In this document: positions 1 to 6,169 of the stretch, in pieces
Layout of the letters: each line of letters begins with the position of its first letter
Numbering within the stretch: position 1 is the stretch's first letter
Assembly: GCA_946479205.1 (NCBI GenBank)
Contig: CAMLFJ010000216.1
Location: 1-6,169, forward strand
From: an uncultured bacterium
GTDB lineage: Bacteria > Methylomirabilota > Methylomirabilia > Rokubacteriales > CSP1-6
Direction of reading: 5' to 3'
Length of the DNA stretch: 6,169 nt
Notes under the pieces: generated by a model
Told to the model about the DNA's origin: nothing
The model's database searches: none
Seen by the model: only the letters and a program-made list of their open reading frames with translations
Program-made: the position numbers and the translations under genes

Positions 1-2059
1 CGTCGTGGCTCCACGCCATGAGCTGCCCGGCCCGCTTGAGCGCCTCCGCGTCGTCGGGCTGCACGTCGAGCAGCGAGCGATAGGCGCGCAGGGCCACCTC
101 GTTGCGCGACAGCGCGAGGCCGCGCCGGCCGACCTCGCGCAGCACCCGCGGGTCCCGCGGGCGCGCGCGCATGAGGCTCTCCCACTGCCGGAGCGCGGGC
201 TCGCCCGCCCCCGTCCAGTCGTAGAGCTGGGCCAGCGCCAGCCGCGCGGCCACCGCGTCGTCGCCGTCGCCCGGGGCCGCCGCGAGGACCGCCTCGTACT
301 CCGCGATCGCGTCCGGGTACTTGCCGAGATCCATCAGGATGCGGCCCGCCTTCGCCCGGTAGGCGGGCCTCGCGGAGGCCGCGAAGCGGCGGTGCACGCG
401 GAGCCCGTCGTCCAGGCGGCCGGCCTGCGCGGTGAGGCTCAGGTACCGGAGCACCTGGCCCTCCTCGAGAGGCCGCCCCTCCACCATCGGCTGCATCAGG
501 CGCGCCGAATCCGGGAATCGGCCGAGCCCCTCGGCGACCTGGGCGGCCGCGTCGCGGAGGGCCCAGTCGTCCGGGCGCCGGGCGAGCAGGCGCTCGGCCA
601 CCCGCACGAAGTCGGCGGGACGATCCTGGAAGCGATAGAGCTCGGCGAGCCGCCCGAGCGAGGCGTCCGGCAACGTGCCCGCGCGATCGAGCCTCTCGTA
701 GACGGAGATGGCCTCGCGCTCCTGGTTGTTCCACTCGTGGAGCTGGGCGAGCCGGAGCGCGGGGCCGGGCGCCCCCGGATTCTGCTCGACGATTCGCCGC
801 TGCCGCGCGATCGCCTCGGGCAGGCGATTCGCGGCGGCGAGGGCGTCCACGGCCTGCTGAGCGTAGCGGACATCCTGGGGCGAGAGGGCGGCGAGCCGGT
901 CCAGCGCGGACAGGGCGGACCCGCCATCCTCGGTGCCCTGCGCGAGCGCGGCCACCCGCTCCTGCAGCGCGCGATCCGCGGGGCGCGCCTTGGCCACGCG
1001 CTCGAGCAGGGCCAGCGCGCGGCGCGGGTCGTTCCCCCACTCGTAGAGCTGGGCCAGGGCCAGCGCGCTGTCGAGCCGGTCCGGCGCGAGCTCCACCGCC
1101 CGCTCGTACGCGGCGATCGCCTCGGGGCCGCGGTCTTGCTCGACGAGCAGCCGGCCGAGCAGCGCCAGCGTGTCGTGGTCGCGGGGACGGAGCCCGGCCA
1201 GCTCCCGCTGCGCGCCGATCGCGCGGGGCCCGTCACCGGCGCCGCGGTAGAGCTCCACCAGCCGGCGGCGCGATCCCTCGTCGCGGGGATCCGCCGCGCG
1301 CTGGCGCTCGAGCAGCGCGATCTCCTCCACCCGCGGCGCGCCGCCCGGCGCCGGGAGGAGGCGGTCGCGGGCCTCGACGTCGCCCGGGGCAATCCGCGCC
1401 AGCACCTTCCAGTGCTCGATCGCGCGATCCCCCTGCCCGAGCGAGTCGTAGGCCTGGGCGAGCCAGCGCCGGCCCTCGGGATCGTCGGGGCGCCGCCGCA
1501 CAAAGGCCTCCAGCACCGTCACGGCCTCCTGCTGCCGGTTGAGGCTTCGCGCCGCGGTGGCCAGCTCGCCCACGATCCCGGAGTCGGTCGGGCTGAGCGC
1601 CACCAGCTTGCGGAGCACCGCGACCTCGCGCTCGTAGTCGCCCTTCCACAGGTACGCGGTGAGCAGGCGCTCGAGCAGGGGGACGTCGTCCGCTCCCGGC
1701 GTCACGGTCAGGCGCTCGAGCACCGCGGCCGCCGCGGCGGGGTCCTTGTTGGCCTGATACGCGTCGGCCAGCCTCAGCAGGAGATCGCGGCGGCGCGGCA
1801 GGCTGCGCGCCGCGTCCTCGAGCGTCGCGATCTGCCGGTCGGGCTCGCCGAGCCCCTCGTAGGCGGTGGCCAGCCCGACCCAGAGATGCGCGTCGGTGGT
1901 GTCGCCGCGCAGCGCGTCGGTGAACATGTCCCGGGCCAGGGTGTACTGCCGGTCGGCCAGGTACGCCCAGCCCAGGTCGCCGCCCCATGGCACCGACAGC
2001 GCGAGGAGCGCGAGGGTGAGCAGCACCCCGAGCCCAAGCTTCCAGCGCTCGATCTTCAC
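1..2059 (-). CDS. Large TPR protein with N-terminal membrane anchor, PelB-like; 3' end missing
   Basis: Translating the minus strand from a GTG at 2059 gives an uninterrupted frame of 686 codons to the window edge, so the C-terminus is missing. Residues 7-24 form one hydrophobic segment (LGLGVLLTLALLALSVPW) that would act as an anchor or uncleaved signal. From about residue 27 onward the protein is a solenoid of 34-residue TPR-type helical pairs, about 15 or more by eye, with the usual spacing of Ala/Gly/Tyr positions and closing Pro residues (for example 296-328, 330-362, 568-597, 603-635, 637-669). Several repeats share an L-A-Q-L-Y-x-W signature. The start overlaps the stop of the deacetylase gene by four bases (GTGA), implying translational coupling. 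In Pel loci, PelB has this layout: anchor, many TPRs, then an outer-membrane beta-barrel, with the TPR part contacting PelA. PelB identity is inferred from architecture and neighbours. A PelE-like or generic TPR scaffold remains possible until the missing end is read. Confidence 0.85.
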   Translation of the reverse strand, partial: MKIERWKLGLGVLLTLALLALSVPWGGDLGWAYLADRQYTLARDMFTDALRGDTTDAHLWVGLATAYEGLGEPDRQIATLEDAARSLPRRRDLLLRLADAYQANKDPAAAAAVLERLTVTPGADDVPLLERLLTAYLWKGDYEREVAVLRKLVALSPTDSGIVGELATAARSLNRQQEAVTVLEAFVRRRPDDPEGRRWLAQAYDSLGQGDRAIEHWKVLARIAPGDVEARDRLLPAPGGAPRVEEIALLERQRAADPRDEGSRRRLVELYRGAGDGPRAIGAQRELAGLRPRDHDTLALLGRLLVEQDRGPEAIAAYERAVELAPDRLDSALALAQLYEWGNDPRRALALLERVAKARPADRALQERVAALAQGTEDGGSALSALDRLAALSPQDVRYAQQAVDALAAANRLPEAIARQRRIVEQNPGAPGPALRLAQLHEWNNQEREAISVYERLDRAGTLPDASLGRLAELYRFQDRPADFVRVAERLLARRPDDWALRDAAAQVAEGLGRFPDSARLMQPMVEGRPLEEGQVLRYLSLTAQAGRLDDGLRVHRRFAASARPAYRAKAGRILMDLGKYPDAIAEYEAVLAAAPGDGDDAVAARLALAQLYDWTGAGEPALRQWESLMRARPRDPRVLREVGRRGLALSRNEVALRAYRSLLDVQPDDAEALKRAGQLMAWSHD

Positions 2060-4179
2060 CCGAGTCGCACCTCCACGTCCGCCGCCTCGCCGGCGCGGAT
2101 GGTGAGGTGTCCGTCGGGCCCGGTCCGCGGCCGCTCGCGTCGCGATCCGGCGCGGTCGCGGATCTCCACCGCGATCTCGCGACCCGCGGGCAGTCCGGCC
2201 AGCTCGACCAGCTTCGGGCCCATCCCCGAGAGCGACACCGCGACGCGCGCGGCCTCGTGGGCCCAGGCGGTGACGCGATGGCTCGCCTGCACGAGGTAGG
2301 GGGTCTGGGGCGCGCGGTCGCCGAGCACGATCAGCGCGGGCTCGGGCCCGGCCAGGTGCACGTAGAGCGCGCCCTGGTGATGGACGAAGCCGAGGACTCC
2401 CCGTGAGCGCGCCAGGTCCACCCCGGCGCGCGTGTCGTCGAAGCGCACGGTGCGCAGCGCGCCGTGGTCCCAGACGCGCCAGCCCGGCTCGGCGCGGGCG
2501 ATGCGCGCGGTCCGGAAGCCCGCCACGATCGCGAGGTACTCGCTGGTGAAGAGGCGCGCGAGCGGCTGCCGCGCGACCCAGTCGTGCACGTGGCGCAGCG
2601 AGGTGAGCGAGGCCACGCGCTCCGCCGAGTAGAAGTGGTAGTAGAGGTTGACCGGGGCGACGCGCCGCGGCTTCTCGGTGTTCTCGAACGTCTCGACCAC
2701 GTGGCGGTAGCCGTAGAACGGACCGCTCCACAGGTTGGTGTAGAGGTTCTCGTTCGAGGCCGACGTGTAGGTCTGCCACTGCCGGCCCACCTGGCGCATC
2801 AGCGGGGCGACCCGGGCGTAGCTCGGCCACTCGCGGTCGCGCATGGTGTCGCCGCCGTTGATGTTGGGCACCCCGAGCCGCGCGAGGACCGCGATCGCCT
2901 CCTCGCTCACCCGGGTGGACCCCGACCACTGGAAGAGCCGCACCCGCTTGCCCGGCGGCAGGAGCCGCTCCTCGATGTACCGGATGGAGCCCGCGGTCTC
3001 CGTCTCCACCGAGTACGGGATCGAGGCGAGCGCGAAGCTCCGCGTCCGCTTCTCCCAGTCCAGCGGATGGGTATAGGAGTGGCTGCCCGCCTCGACGTTC
3101 GGCAGCCGGAAGATCGCGCGGGCCAGCTCCTGGAACTCGGGCGAGCCGAGCAGCGTCGGATCCACCTCCGCCACCACGACCGACACGCTGGTGGGCAGCC
3201 CGTAGCGCGAGAGGACCTCCTCGAGCAGGACCTGGCCGCTCGAGGCGCCCGCGCGGACCTCCGAGCGGTTGCGCAGCCCGTCGCCGTCGATGTGCGAGTA
3301 GCAGATGCGCCGCCCGCCCTGGGTGGTGGTGTCCGGCCGCGGCCAGTCCCCGACCCCGAGCGCTTCCCGGAAGAACGCGAACGGGTCGAGCCACCACTGC
3401 GCGCCCGATTCCCCCGGGAACTGGAAGCGCACGTACTCGGCCGCCGCGAAGCCGCCCCACGGACCCGTCACCACCACCTGGCTCTCGGAGTCCGGCAGGT
3501 CGCGCCGGGCCAGCACGAGATACGCGCGGGAGTCCGCCCGGCGCGCGCGGACCTGCTGGTAGGCGGGCAGGCCGGGCGGGAACGACCGCTCGAACTCCAT
3601 CATCTTCGGATCCTTGCGGCGGAGCTCGATCACCGTCTGGTTGCCCGTCCAGTTGCCCAGGAACTCGAGCCCGCTCGGCGCCAGCGCCTCGTTGGCCGCG
3701 GCCAGGTCGACGGTCCGCAGGGTCCGGCGATCGCGCAGCGCGCCCAGGTACTCGAGGATCACCACCCGGCGACCGGCCCGGATCTGCGCGCCCAGCCAGC
3801 GCAGGTAGTCGAGCGGCGCGGCCATGTCCTCGGTCTGGAACCACGTGATGACGCCGCGGTAGCGCGACATCGTCCGCTCGTCCGGCAGCCCCCGGTCGAT
3901 GTCGTGGTACTCGACCATGAGCCCGAGCCAGTTGAGCGGCATCTGGGCCCAGCTGTGCACCTCGTTGCGGGTGGCGGTCTTGGGCCGGCGGCCGTCCACG
4001 TCGTTGGAGAACTCGCCCGACTTGTACAGCGCCAGCACGTAGCGCGGTAGCTCCCCCGGGGCCGACGCGGGCGCGGTCGGCGCCGCGAGGGCGGGGCGAG
4101 CGGCCGCCCCCAGCGCGAGCGCGCCCACCGCGGCGGCCGAGCCCCCCAGGAGGGAGCGGCGCGAGAGCGATCGGGTCAC
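2056..4179 (-). CDS. pelA: Tat-exported polysaccharide deacetylase, PelA-like without the hydrolase domain
   Basis: This 707-residue protein starts with GTG. Residues 1-33 form a twin-arginine signal: SRRSLLG at 6-12, a hydrophobic Ala/Gly/Leu core, then an Ala-rich cleavage region near 30-33, so it should leave the cytoplasm folded. Residues 45-285 resemble the alpha/beta middle region of PelA and carry no deacetylase motif. Residues 290-555 form a CE4-like deacetylase domain: SHIDGDG at 295-301 supplies the Asp pair (D298, D300), HSYTHP at 367-372 supplies two metal-binding His (H367, H371), and NGGDT (441-445) and YYHFYS (513-518) match later conserved blocks. Residues 560-707 look beta-rich, as in a carbohydrate-binding or Ig-like end domain. 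The expected reaction is partial removal of N-acetyl groups from a GalNAc/GlcNAc polymer in the periplasm. It follows the hydrolase gene by seven bases with no visible Shine-Dalgarno, and its stop overlaps the next start. PelA-type identity is well supported; the actual substrate is inferred. Confidence 0.88.
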   Translation of the reverse strand: MTRSLSRRSLLGGSAAAVGALALGAAARPALAAPTAPASAPGELPRYVLALYKSGEFSNDVDGRRPKTATRNEVHSWAQMPLNWLGLMVEYHDIDRGLPDERTMSRYRGVITWFQTEDMAAPLDYLRWLGAQIRAGRRVVILEYLGALRDRRTLRTVDLAAANEALAPSGLEFLGNWTGNQTVIELRRKDPKMMEFERSFPPGLPAYQQVRARRADSRAYLVLARRDLPDSESQVVVTGPWGGFAAAEYVRFQFPGESGAQWWLDPFAFFREALGVGDWPRPDTTTQGGRRICYSHIDGDGLRNRSEVRAGASSGQVLLEEVLSRYGLPTSVSVVVAEVDPTLLGSPEFQELARAIFRLPNVEAGSHSYTHPLDWEKRTRSFALASIPYSVETETAGSIRYIEERLLPPGKRVRLFQWSGSTRVSEEAIAVLARLGVPNINGGDTMRDREWPSYARVAPLMRQVGRQWQTYTSASNENLYTNLWSGPFYGYRHVVETFENTEKPRRVAPVNLYYHFYSAERVASLTSLRHVHDWVARQPLARLFTSEYLAIVAGFRTARIARAEPGWRVWDHGALRTVRFDDTRAGVDLARSRGVLGFVHHQGALYVHLAGPEPALIVLGDRAPQTPYLVQASHRVTAWAHEAARVAVSLSGMGPKLVELAGLPAGREIAVEIRDRAGSRRERPRTGPDGHLTIRAGEAADVEVRLG

Positions 4180-4186
4180 GGGGCGG

Positions 4187-5056
4187 TCACCGCGCGAGGG
4201 TGTGGGTCGAGACCTGGTCGAGGCCGATCGTCGAGACGTACGGGACGAATCCGCGGGCGCGGGCGCGGCGGATCAGCTCGGTCGGCCAGGGCGCGCCGCG
4301 GTCGGCCGCGGCGTACTCGATGGTGAACACGGGCAGGCCCAGCGCGACCACCCGGGCCAGGAGGAGCGCCCGGGACTCCGCCTCATCGGCCGGCCGCACG
4401 CGATAGGCCTTGGCCTTGAAGTCGTAGTCCGTCCAGATGGACTCGAGCGCGACCGCGTCCAGCACCGTCGGCAGCCGCTCCGCGATCGGCAGGCCGCCGT
4501 TGATCATCAGGAGCGCCCGCGGGTGGCGGCGCCGGAGCTCGACGAGCACGCGCTCGAGCGCGTGGGCCGCCCCCGCGAACCGCCGCGGGTCGGTCTGCTC
4601 GAGGTCGAGCGCGGTGTCCGCGGTGTCGAGGAAGAGACCGTTCACCGGACCGGCCAGCGCGGCCGGCACCACCCGGTCGAGCAGCCAGCGCTCGTAGGCC
4701 GGGGCGCGCACGTCGAGGCGGCGCGCCTCGGGCCAGCTCGGGTTGGCGGAGAGCACCCACGACTCGCTGGCGACGGCGGCGAACTCGGGATGGCTCGTGT
4801 TCACCTCGCCCAGGCTCACGTAGGTCAGCAGCAGCGAGCCGTACCGCTTGACGAGGGGAAGCGGCGGGTGGGCGCGCGGATCGAGCACGACCACGTCGAA
4901 GCGGGCCAGGTCCACCGCCGCCTCGGGGGCCGCCGCGTAGTAGACGACCCAGGTGCGCACGCCCGCCAGGGGACGGATCGGCGAGGCGGCCGGCGCCGAC
5001 GCCCCGCCGAGCCCCAGGACGAGGGCGGCGGCGAGCAGGCGCCGCGTCAGACCCAC
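4187..5056 (-). CDS. Secreted GH114/GH166-type glycosidase, PelA hydrolase-domain-like
   Basis: The frame is open as far as 5794, but that extension is an out-of-frame reading of the upstream regulator gene. The GTG at 5056 is preferred: it is followed at once by a Sec-type signal (residues 1-25, RRLLAAALVLGLGGASAPAA), lies 10 nt after a GGGGGGAGG stretch, and overlaps the upstream stop by ten bases. The product is 289 residues. Motifs along a predicted TIM barrel fit the GH114/TM1410-like superfamily: VVVLDP (55-60), TYVSLGEVN (78-86), GLFLDTADT (140-148), MINGG (184-188), ESIWTDYD (205-212), VFTIEYA (243-249) and FVPYVSTIGLD (270-280). D144 and E205 are the likely catalytic acid pair by analogy with the PelA hydrolase and fungal Ega3 alpha-1,4-galactosaminidases. 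The expected role is endo-cleavage of a GalNAc-containing polymer in the periplasm or outside the cell. The deacetylase gene follows, so together the two cover what is one protein, PelA, in Pseudomonas. Fold is confident; linkage specificity is inferred. Confidence 0.85.
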   Translation of the reverse strand: MGLTRRLLAAALVLGLGGASAPAASPIRPLAGVRTWVVYYAAAPEAAVDLARFDVVVLDPRAHPPLPLVKRYGSLLLTYVSLGEVNTSHPEFAAVASESWVLSANPSWPEARRLDVRAPAYERWLLDRVVPAALAGPVNGLFLDTADTALDLEQTDPRRFAGAAHALERVLVELRRRHPRALLMINGGLPIAERLPTVLDAVALESIWTDYDFKAKAYRVRPADEAESRALLLARVVALGLPVFTIEYAAADRGAPWPTELIRRARARGFVPYVSTIGLDQVSTHTLAR

Positions 5057-5877
5057 GCGGCGAGCGCCTCCCCCCGGGTGCCGTGGATCGTGACCGCCTT
5101 GATCAGGCGGGTCATCTCGAAGATCGCCCGCACGTCGTCCTGCAGCGCGCAGAGGCGCAGGTCCCCGCCCGCGGTGCGGGCGTGCTTCAGCGTCGCGACG
5201 AGGGCGCCCATGCCCGAGCTGTCGATGTAGCCCACGCTCCCGAGATCCACCAGCAGCTTGACGGACCCCTCGTTCACGAGGCCGGCCAGCACGCGCTTCA
5301 TCTGGTCCGCGGCCGCCATGTCGAGATCGCCCCGGGGGACGATCACCGCGATCGCGGCCGAACGAGTCACCTCGATGTCCATGGCCTCTCCTGATCGAGC
5401 CGGCGCCCCGTCCCCGCCGTCCGCGACCGAGCGATCGACCGGGGCATGCCCCGGTCGGAACTTGACGAGGGTCCAGCGGGTCCCGCGCTCCCGGCGTACG
5501 TCGATGGAAACCGAATCGGCGATGCGGTGCACCAGGTGGATGCCCAGCCCGTGATCCGGTAGCGCGTCGAGATCGGGCTCCACGTAGCGCGCGGCCTCGA
5601 AGGCACGCCCGAAGTCCTCCACCTCGAGCACGAGCCGGTCCTCGAGACCCTGGATCGAGACGTGAATGGGCTGGCCGCCCCGGCCCTCGTACGCGTGCTC
5701 GATGGAGTTGGCGCACAGCTCGCCGATCGCCAGCACCAGGGCCGCGCGGGTCTTCCGCTCCACGCCCAGCCCGGCCAGCTCCTCGCGCAGCCACTCACGC
5801 AGCCGCGCCAGATGCAGGGCCTCGCTCGACATCGTGAAGCGGCCGGGTGCCGCCGGGTCACGCTCTGGCCGGATCAC
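5047..5877 (-). CDS. RsbW-type serine kinase/anti-sigma ATPase fused to STAS anti-anti-sigma domain
   Basis: This 276-residue protein has no signal or membrane segment and should be cytoplasmic. Residues 13-141 are a GHKL ATPase of the RsbW/SpoIIAB class: N box E53-x-x-x-N57-x-x-x-H61-A-Y, DFGRAF at 88-93 and HGLGIHLV at 109-116, all intact. A Gly/Asp/Pro-rich linker covers about 142-165. Residues 166-276 are a complete STAS domain with GDLDMAAA at 183-190 and the phospho-acceptor motif IDSSGMG at 218-224 (S220/S221). In the known switch the kinase binds and inhibits a sigma factor or other target, phosphorylates the STAS serine, and is released when STAS is unphosphorylated; here both sit on one chain. 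The GTG start is chosen because the first beta strand of the family (around residues 13-16) would be lost at the internal ATG at 5832, although neither start has a clear ribosome binding site. The gene leads the polysaccharide operon and overlaps the hydrolase gene by ten bases. No sigma factor or PP2C phosphatase is in the window. Confidence 0.88.
   Translation of the reverse strand: MIRPERDPAAPGRFTMSSEALHLARLREWLREELAGLGVERKTRAALVLAIGELCANSIEHAYEGRGGQPIHVSIQGLEDRLVLEVEDFGRAFEAARYVEPDLDALPDHGLGIHLVHRIADSVSIDVRRERGTRWTLVKFRPGHAPVDRSVADGGDGAPARSGEAMDIEVTRSAAIAVIVPRGDLDMAAADQMKRVLAGLVNEGSVKLLVDLGSVGYIDSSGMGALVATLKHARTAGGDLRLCALQDDVRAIFEMTRLIKAVTIHGTRGEALAAWV
5385..5392 (-). promoter_or_regulatory. 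Internal ribosome binding site for a free STAS protein
   Basis: The minus strand reads AGGAGAGGCC followed by ATG at 5382-5380, which is codon 166 of the fusion gene and the exact first residue expected of an RsbV/SpoIIAA-type STAS protein. It is the best Shine-Dalgarno match seen in the window, with about five bases between AGGAG and ATG. Initiation here would give a separate 111-residue antagonist in addition to the fusion. The motif is directly visible; its use is inferred. Confidence 0.6.
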
Positions 5878-5903
5878 GCTCGGATACCCACATCGCGCGA
5901 TTC

Positions 5904-5912
5904 AGTATAACA
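5904..5912 (-). promoter_or_regulatory. Extended -10 promoter motif upstream of the regulator/Pel-like operon
   Basis: The minus strand reads TGTTATACT, a five-of-six match to TATAAT with the upstream TG of an extended -10 element. It is a rare AT-rich spot in very GC-rich DNA. No -35 hexamer is recognisable 16-18 bases upstream, as is usual for extended -10 promoters. Transcription would start near 5897, about 20 bases before the GTG at 5877. A housekeeping sigma factor is assumed. Confidence 0.45.
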
Positions 5913-5919
5913 GCGGGAG

Positions 5920-5940
5920 GGCGCCCGACTGGCGGGCGCC
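5920..5940 (-). terminator. GC hairpin after the small membrane protein gene, possible terminator
   Basis: GGCGCCCG and CGGGCGCC form a perfect 8-bp stem around a 5-base loop, about 20 bases after the stop of the 63-residue gene. The sequence after it on the minus strand (CTCCCGCTGTTAT) has only a poor U-tract, so it is not a textbook intrinsic terminator. It may slow or partly stop polymerase or stabilise an RNA end. It directly precedes the -10 motif, which supports a transcription-unit boundary here. Confidence 0.4.
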
Positions 5941-5959
5941 GGAGGGAACAGCGGGACTG

Positions 5960-6151
5960 CTACCGCCGCGAGTAGCCGAGCTGGGCGCCGACCGGAAAGC
6001 CGTTGCGGTCGCGCCGGGAGGGATCCGCGGTCACCGAGTCACGCCACGCCTGGTATTCACGCTCGTCCTGCCAGCGCCGGAGCGCCCACACCGCGAGCCC
6101 CACCGCGACACCCCCCATCGCCACGACGCAAACCAGCGCTCCGCGCTTCAT
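5960..6151 (-). CDS. Small single-pass membrane protein, unknown function
   Basis: The 63-residue reading frame begins MKRGALVCVV, has one hydrophobic segment at about residues 5-24, and continues with a charged tail rich in Arg and Asp (WQDEREYQAWRDS at 27-39). The lysine and arginine before the hydrophobic stretch and the charged tail after it suggest a short anchored protein or uncleaved signal. C8 is not in a convincing lipobox. Upstream there is only a weak GAG at Shine-Dalgarno distance, and a TGA two bases before the ATG could be the end of a previous gene. A hairpin and a candidate promoter separate it from the regulator gene, so it may belong to a different transcript. I do not recognise the family. 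The size and clean membrane profile support a real gene, but a chance frame is not excluded. Confidence 0.5.
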   Translation of the reverse strand: MKRGALVCVVAMGGVAVGLAVWALRRWQDEREYQAWRDSVTADPSRRDRNGFPVGAQLGYSRR

Positions 6152-6155
6152 GATC

Positions 6156-6169
6156 AGCTCGAACGAGCT
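6156..6169. repeat. Short inverted repeat at the window edge
   Basis: AGCTCG-AA-CGAGCT is a perfect 6-bp inverted repeat around two bases, located 5-18 bases upstream of the ATG at 6151. It could be part of an operator or only the end of an upstream coding region cut by the window. The length is short enough to occur by chance. Confidence 0.2.

Follow-up and report, generated by a model that had tools for sequence, protein, structure and literature searches.

The stretch of bacterial DNA analysed here (contig CAMLFJ010000216.1, positions 1 to 6,169; all 6,169 nucleotides (nt) are referred to as the window) holds, with a probability of roughly 0.87, the start of a Gram-negative Pel-type exopolysaccharide operon, most likely from a Methylomirabilota (Rokubacteria) bacterium, in which PelA is made as two exported proteins, a hydrolase and a deacetylase, and in which PelB, to judge from relatives, is also made as two. 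The assignment to Pel is very likely correct. The three pel-type genes of the window are all on the minus strand, tightly spaced, and at the places first noted: the PelA hydrolase half (PelA_H; 4187..5056; 289 amino acids (aa), GH114-type fold), the PelA deacetylase half (2056..4179; 707 aa, with an alpha/beta domain, a CE21-type deacetylase and a C-terminal region) and the tetratricopeptide repeat (TPR) half of PelB (2..2059; 686 aa), which has an N-terminal membrane anchor and is incomplete at the window edge. Reading of the DNA places 7 nt between the hydrolase stop and the deacetylase start, which are in different frames, while the deacetylase stop and the TPR start overlap as GTGA. The precursor lengths sum to 996 aa (289 + 707); a mature total of about 940 is an estimate.

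Both enzymes match solved PelA structures and retain their active sites, which bears out the Pel-type assignment made in the first-pass annotation. The hydrolase matched the Pfam family Glyco_hydro_114 (E 6e-13) and the PelA entries 5tcb, 5tsy and 9cgy in the Protein Data Bank (PDB; E 1e-24 to 4e-22), the best of them being the PelA hydrolase 5tcb (E 1e-24); that annotation also used the family name GH166. The deacetylase aligned with full-length PelA (9cgy, E 3.5e-84, residues 79-655) and showed no Pfam domain above the cut-off. Its near homologues (P0028 and P0031, 79-80% identity) are named Methylomirabilota or Rokuibacteriota, and it is 63% and 66% identical to the deacetylases of the named Rokubacteria loci L001 and L002. 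An NCBIfam search of the window proteins returned no Pel name, and the best name for the TPR protein, PrsT, was rejected as far below the cut-off. A PgaB- or alginate-type locus was likewise rejected because both halves match PelA and because PelF and PelG follow in relatives.

In the hydrolase, Glu205 (DNA 4442-4444) aligns with a residue that differs between 5tcb and 5tsy, and a glutamate is kept at this position in 55 of 56 aligned hydrolases; a conserved Asp144 occupies the position that we take to be D160. For the deacetylase, roles and numbering follow PMC12022489. The motif H296-I-D298-G-D300 (3280..3294, minus strand), comprising the activator His, the catalytic base and a metal ligand, aligned with D517/D519 of PtPelA, and the 9cgy alignment further placed the metal ligands H367 and H371 (3067..3081), the putative catalytic acid H515 (2635..2637) and its partner Glu477 (2749-2751), all on the minus strand. 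All seven checked catalytic residues are present, so that base, metal triad and acid are all there. Among 62 aligned rows, Asp298, Asp300 and His367 are each kept in 61, His371 and His515 in 60, Glu477 in 59 and His296 in 57.

The break in PelA coincides with a domain junction. In 9cgy (PtPelA), the hydrolase domain spans residues 37-292 and the alpha/beta domain begins at 293 (PMC12022489). The window hydrolase aligns as far as 9cgy chain position 249 (residue ~285), and the deacetylase aligns from position 280 (~316), with ~40 more residues ahead of that. In 14 fused proteins (L096-L109), the deacetylase profile begins ~9-13 residues past the end of the hydrolase profile. Together, these alignment ends and spacings put the split between the hydrolase and the alpha/beta domain, as the first-pass annotation had proposed. 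The two enzymes are encoded as two open reading frames (ORFs) in the window and in its relatives L014, L015 and L017, none of which has a one-chain PelA.

The anchored TPR gene directly follows the deacetylase, so that the PelB-like TPR protein noted earlier is indeed present. Its product matched TPR_14 (Pfam, E 5e-34), carries a visible N-terminal hydrophobic stretch and is 75% identical to a 740-aa homologue in L014 (7721-9943). In the Rokubacteria-type relatives L014, L015 and L016, a TPR gene is followed by a gene for TPRs plus a beta-barrel, and a single-chain PelB is found in none of the three; in L014, the two genes lie in different frames and share the overlap GTGA. A structural model of the corresponding protein from L002 (14608-16065, 485 aa; 31 homologues; predicted local distance difference test score (pLDDT) 86.6) comprised nine TPR-region helices followed by 16 strands, and its best PDB fold match was PelB of the PelBC structure (9h80_M; Foldseek E 1.2e-17, template modelling (TM) scores 0.55/0.67). 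Sequence and profile searches of the PDB with the barrel protein gave TPR-region matches and no PelB among the matches listed (for the profile search, the best 60 of 159). According to PMC12141448, the last TPRs and the stalk of PelB are needed to hold the PelC ring, its N-terminus is perhaps an uncleaved membrane helix, and PelA binds its residues 332-436. In functional terms, one product of the split would keep the anchor, and the other would combine the barrel with the part that faces PelC.

The window ends before any glycosyltransferase or flippase gene, so PelF and PelG are inferred from relatives. Among 95 genomes of the phylum to which genome G002 belongs, the deacetylase was found in four, with PelG above the cut-off in the same four and the hydrolase in three of them; a fifth genome, G094, gave a weak PelG match below the cut-off. 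Loci L014 and L015 run in the order HATPase-STAS, hydrolase, deacetylase, TPR, TPR plus barrel, PelC, PelD, PelE, PelF, PelG, and L016 (from G002) has the same order minus the hydrolase. L017 comprises HATPase, STAS, hydrolase and deacetylase, its contig ending inside the deacetylase, and PelG lies on another contig of that genome. The PelF glycosyltransferase and PelG transporter, for which the first-pass annotation had proposed to look, were located downstream in L014, L015 and L016. In the relatives, PelG matched PF16933 (E 1e-122) and PelF matched DUF3492 (Pfam, E 4e-82); PelC, present in L014-L016, matched PelC of 9h80 (E 3e-17). Genes in the PelD and PelE positions are also found downstream in L014-L016 and are placed mainly by position, PelE in addition by the mutual likeness of the three proteins. 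The PelD of L014 combines a GAF domain with a degenerate GGDEF domain preceded by an RxxD site (RDVD), features that would suit a cyclic di-GMP receptor.

The two-protein PelA extends well beyond this lineage. A survey profile (A2, 18 deacetylases) was run on 398 evenly drawn Pseudomonadota genomes, with at most two candidates scored per genome; a second copy at G250:C200 was left out, and L006 stood for G099. The profile matched 32 of the 398 genomes, of which 14 carried a fused PelA in one ORF and 18 did not. A separate hydrolase ORF lay near the deacetylase in 17 of the 18, and none was present in the stretch read from G456. When 11 split genomes (nine without PelF or PelG in reach, plus G154 and G115) were searched again for PelG, eight had it somewhere and three did not. 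In the phylum of the KSB1 loci, 20 of 82 genomes were matched; 16 were read, the other four being fragments, and no fused chain was found in the 16. Two gene orders occur there, deacetylase-hydrolase-PelB-like-D-E(-F-G) and D-E-deacetylase-F-G, and in some loci no hydrolase was seen. Among named organisms, Thalassobaculum litoreum (L006) and Azospirillum thermophilum have the split PelA, and a Caballeronia plasmid carries the fused form. Homologue counts from protein searches cover the matches listed and, since both queries were split forms, do not measure prevalence.

The state of PelB was compared in loci with a PelD-like ORF at most 9 kb downstream. All 14 fused loci had one large ORF of 1107-1511 aa, measured stop to stop, between PelA and PelD, and 16 of 21 split loci outside the KSB1 phylum had two ORFs of at least 470 aa there; of the remainder, L076 had one ORF, L008 was irregular and L091-L093 had no such pair. 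The eight KSB1-phylum loci listed all had one ORF of 1115-1133 aa before PelD. The second ORF is demonstrated as a barrel, by the model, for Rokubacteria only, and because the PelA and PelB states co-vary but follow clades, they are not independent evidence.

Several further arrangements were encountered in these surveys. Hydrolase-deacetylase pairs with neither PelF nor PelG in the stretch read were seen in L079, L080, L082, L083, L087, L089, L091-L093 and L095, where some stretches stop at a contig end; seven of these 10 genomes have PelG elsewhere, and none was found in G127, G234 and G266. In the KSB1 phylum, L111-L115 and L125 have a Gram-positive-like D-E-deacetylase-F-G arrangement (the stretch is incomplete in L113); L111, L112 and L114 also have a TPR gene, and the deacetylase consensus of L111-L114 has a C-terminal membrane-like stretch. 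Deacetylases of ~1200 aa with no hydrolase domain occur in L110 and L126 and as P0071, P0104, P0214-P0216 and P0219-P0223; P0071 and P0104 show repeated matches for the N-terminal part of the deacetylase region. Finally, in L129 (a Cereibacter azotoformans plasmid), PelF and PelG are accompanied by a polysaccharide export family protein, galE, glmS, a convergent polygalactosaminidase and a very divergent deacetylase-like protein whose catalytic residues are misaligned in this alignment.

Phylogenetic trees were quick or FastTree searches and are unrooted. The deacetylase tree comprised 62 ORFs of 480 to 1056 residues from 76 domain matches, L127-L130 included; short pieces (such as L124 and one L085 ORF) and the tandem forms L110 and L126 were dropped. 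Its 15 fused rows lay on one side of a branch with a support of 100 in the SH-like approximate likelihood ratio test (SH-aLRT), and the same 15 fused loci formed one clade in a tree of 56 hydrolases. The window grouped with L014, L015, L016 and L017 in the deacetylase tree and with L014, L015 and L017 in the hydrolase tree, its deacetylase falling with those of pel loci, as had been anticipated. The deacetylase part of P0098, a fused protein of 969 aa, fell among deacetylase-only rows, and holding it with the other fused rows was rejected by the approximately unbiased (AU) test (p 0.0065); its hydrolase part had no supported place. L008 and L129 are absent from both P0098 trees, and L076 and L088 in addition from that of the hydrolase. 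A wider FastTree (229 rows, without L008 and L129) contained a clade of 65 that was nearly all fused, the exceptions being P0244, P0306 and the long P0286, in which no hydrolase domain was detected. Of the other 164 rows, only P0242+P0243 and P0098 combine the deacetylase with a hydrolase domain in one chain. Since P0098 and P0242+P0243 are nested among split forms, fusion probably occurred more than once. An attempt at rooting with Gram-positive sequences found no familiar Gram-positive name (Bacillus, Clostridium or other) among the best 120 of 169 matches, most of which are unnamed.

These results suggest that a two-protein PelA is common and that the fused PelA of Pseudomonas is perhaps the derived form. 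Taken further, the separate halves of PelA, together with the window's layout of PelB, may be the older and broader state, with the Pseudomonas fusions derived and physically coupled and the split halves addressed separately; we hold this joint reading tentatively, at slightly less than even odds. The reverse course, in which fused PelA (and PelB) was ancestral and was broken in the window's and other split lineages, seems to us unlikely, even if it is the best placed of the alternatives. With unrooted trees, a root inside the fused clade would let one fission explain most split forms, and a sister relationship of the window clade and the fused clade was neither found nor rejected (AU p 0.228); P0244 (681 aa), which has no hydrolase domain and lies inside the fused clade, would represent one hydrolase loss or an incomplete gene. 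Against secondary fission, split forms occur in several clades and in three orders (hydrolase-deacetylase, deacetylase-hydrolase and D-E-deacetylase-F-G), the fused P0098 and P0242+P0243 are nested among deacetylase-only forms, with P0098 kept out of the fused clade by the test above, and published Gram-positive pel loci also have separate halves.

Export signals were scored by simple motif patterns rather than by a trained predictor, and a hydrophobicity filter, which passed only 34 of 70 near homologues, was replaced by a plain motif count. The N-terminus of the window deacetylase is twin-arginine-like (LSRRSLL), and the pattern [ST]RRx followed by two hydrophobic residues was found in 59 of 61 full-length near homologues of the deacetylase versus 1 of 49 more distant ones. 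The window hydrolase has its own N-terminal signal-like stretch, with a twin arginine (RR). An RR motif is also found on the hydrolase in Thalassobaculum-type loci (L004, L006 and L007) and in Azospirillum (L127 and L128); it is absent from 20 of 26 Pseudomonadota split hydrolases and from all 28 of their deacetylases. All eight hydrolases of deacetylase-hydrolase loci in the KSB1 phylum have a lipobox. The lipobox pattern also matched 3 of 28 split deacetylases from Pseudomonadota, 1 of 10 from KSB1 and 1 of 15 fused chains, and the RR pattern matched 2 of 8 other deacetylases of the KSB1 phylum and the L079 hydrolase. These patterns suggest that the PelA halves may carry different export signals in some lineages.

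A number of observations weigh against reading the locus as a complete Pel system. The polymer is a prediction from the genes, and pelC to pelG lie beyond the window and are read from relatives. The TPR half is too generic for the name PelB to follow from its own sequence, and E. coli BcsC is nearly as close to the L002 barrel model (E 6e-17, TM 0.60/0.54) as PelB is, so that the name PelB rests on fold plus operon context rather than on fold alone; the next fold match after BcsC was 4y25, which we take to be PgaA. No dedicated PelD model in Pfam matched the gene in the PelD position, and PelE matched only HEAT repeats there, which leaves position as the main guide to both. Lastly, the hydrolase gene was not found in G002, the genome of a Rokubacterium, despite its complete pel operon (L016), and the hydrolase may be dispensable or serve another role.

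It is conceivable, and in our view improbable, that the product is another deacetylated amino-sugar polymer, related to Pel. The window deacetylase is only ~32-36% identical to the fused PelA of Caballeronia, Cupriavidus and Burkholderia, and divergent operons may make altered polymers (PMC7112194). This is countered by the strong PelF and PelG family matches in relatives and by the retention of both PelA active sites; the glmS-like gene by the operon in L014, L015 and L017, recognised by eye, fits Pel as well as it fits a relative of Pel.

The first-pass annotation had taken the locus for an odd mixture, namely a transitional or independently rearranged form peculiar to this lineage, on the ground that split PelA was known for the Gram-positive pelDEA(DA)FG core without PelB and PelC, and that a PelB-like protein is present here. 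This proposal is mostly refuted already, and we regard it as quite improbable. Among the deacetylase-bearing genomes, 18 of 32 in Pseudomonadota and 16 of 16 read in the KSB1 phylum are not fused, several split loci carry PelB-sized and PelC genes, and the succession of genes in Azospirillum thermophilum is the same. Many Gram-negative loci have a split PelA next to PelB-sized and PelC genes, the sampled fused loci form one clade, and nothing demonstrates a transitional place for the window lineage. An assembly error or a decayed pelA, to which a likely metagenomic origin and ORFs only 7 nt apart might point, is scarcely credible, as both halves come with starts and export signal-like stretches of their own and with intact active sites, the hydrolase domain is absent from 119 of 120 deacetylase homologues among the matches listed, and the split recurs in the independent assemblies of L014, L015 and L017, which refutes it.

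Upstream of the hydrolase lies an ORF (5047..5877, minus strand) whose single frame encodes an RsbW-like kinase domain (HATPase_c_2; Pfam, E 2e-23) and an antagonist domain (STAS; E 1e-17). It shares 10 nt with the start of the hydrolase, and its internal ATG at 5382 is preceded by AGGAGAGGCC. The pair directly precedes pelA in the window and is kept in the same order in L014-L017, as one ORF in L014 and as separate ORFs in L015-L017. It looks like a partner-switch control of the pel operon. The first-pass annotation, sound as to the places of the genes, had missed both this regulator and the split of PelB in relatives. Farther upstream, the window has a small ORF of 63 aa (5960-6151, minus strand) with an N-terminal membrane-helix-like stretch, unlike L014, L015 and L017, where the gene upstream of HATPase-STAS resembles the amino-sugar supply gene glmS; this was recognised by eye, and no search was made for it. 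A PP2C-type response regulator and a multi-GAF sensor kinase, also recognised by eye, lie further upstream in L002.

Gene content and order (in relatives), active sites and split points can be read from sequence; for substrate, complex formation, export routes and control by the HATPase-STAS pair, we infer the following working. PelF would polymerise UDP-N-acetylgalactosamine (UDP-GalNAc) in the cytoplasm, and the chain would be passed through the inner membrane by PelD (degenerate GGDEF, RxxD), PelE and PelG. The anchored TPR protein would then guide the chain, while the deacetylase, held on this TPR scaffold, would remove some acetyl groups to yield a cationic chain, which would exit via the separate TPR plus beta-barrel protein with its PelC ring. 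The free hydrolase would cut acetylated chain independently of the deacetylase-PelB assembly. In the modelled interface with PelB, only the deacetylase and alpha/beta domains of PelA take part (PMC12022489), so PelA and PelB could still work as a pair with the hydrolase free.

Compared with the Pseudomonas pelABCDEFG operon, the system shares the order A-B-C-D-E-F-G (in relatives), both PelA catalytic centres, the anchored TPR scaffold and, again in relatives, a 16-strand barrel, PelC, PelF and PelG (9CGY, PMC12022489; 9H80, PMC12141448). It differs in having PelA as two proteins and, in relatives, PelB as two, in the twin-arginine-like signal of the deacetylase and in the upstream HATPase-STAS switch. 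The Gram-positive pelDEA(DA)FG core, described for Bacillus cereus with pelA(H) separate and without PelB or PelC (PMC7112168), likewise has hydrolase and deacetylase as separate proteins; deletion of the hydrolase gene is reported to increase biofilm in Bacillus cereus. In contrast to that core, the order here is canonical, with A first and the halves adjacent, a PelB-like TPR gene follows the deacetylase, relatives add the barrel and PelC, and the D-E-DA-F-G order is not found.

A close named parallel is a plasmid of Azospirillum thermophilum (NZ_CP029356), annotated as endo alpha-1,4 polygalactosaminidase, hypothetical protein, TPR, TPR, GNA1162, GAF protein, hypothetical protein, PelF and PelG. 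The order is the same as here, with an unnamed deacetylase and a GNA1162-type protein in the PelC position; its hydrolase is preceded by an epimerase gene instead of HATPase-STAS, and the deacetylases are ~35% identical. Fission of PelB, along with rearrangement of pelA, has been described for aquatic thermophiles (PMC7112194), which likewise have PelB in more than one gene; no split Gram-negative PelA appears in the available portion of that account. A survey of Gram-negative PelA demanded >85% coverage of the fused protein (PMC12022489), so a split PelA would go uncounted in it, and an expression table for Fusobacterium lists pelF, pelG and a separate polygalactosaminidase, the hydrolase not being discussed in the accessible part of the paper (PMC9848294). 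In the open-licence literature, as far as its texts were available, no account was found of a PelB-containing operon in which PelA is split. The new elements are the combination, within a canonical Gram-negative operon, of a split PelA with (in relatives) a split PelB, the breadth of this variant, and the proposal that the fusion may be derived.

Models of Pel modification assume one PelB-bound PelA chain that carries out both deacetylation and hydrolysis. Natural split systems part these two activities, so that one can ask which half needs PelB; they also bear on whether the hydrolase is dispensable, none having been found in G002, and on the reason for the fusion in Pseudomonas. The split enzymes, smaller and separate, would lend themselves to structural work. 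Genomes in which the deacetylase is labelled 'hypothetical protein', such as that of Azospirillum thermophilum, become readable as complete pel loci. If the separate halves are indeed the older state, the cutting of Pel would not be tied to the assembly of deacetylase and PelB.

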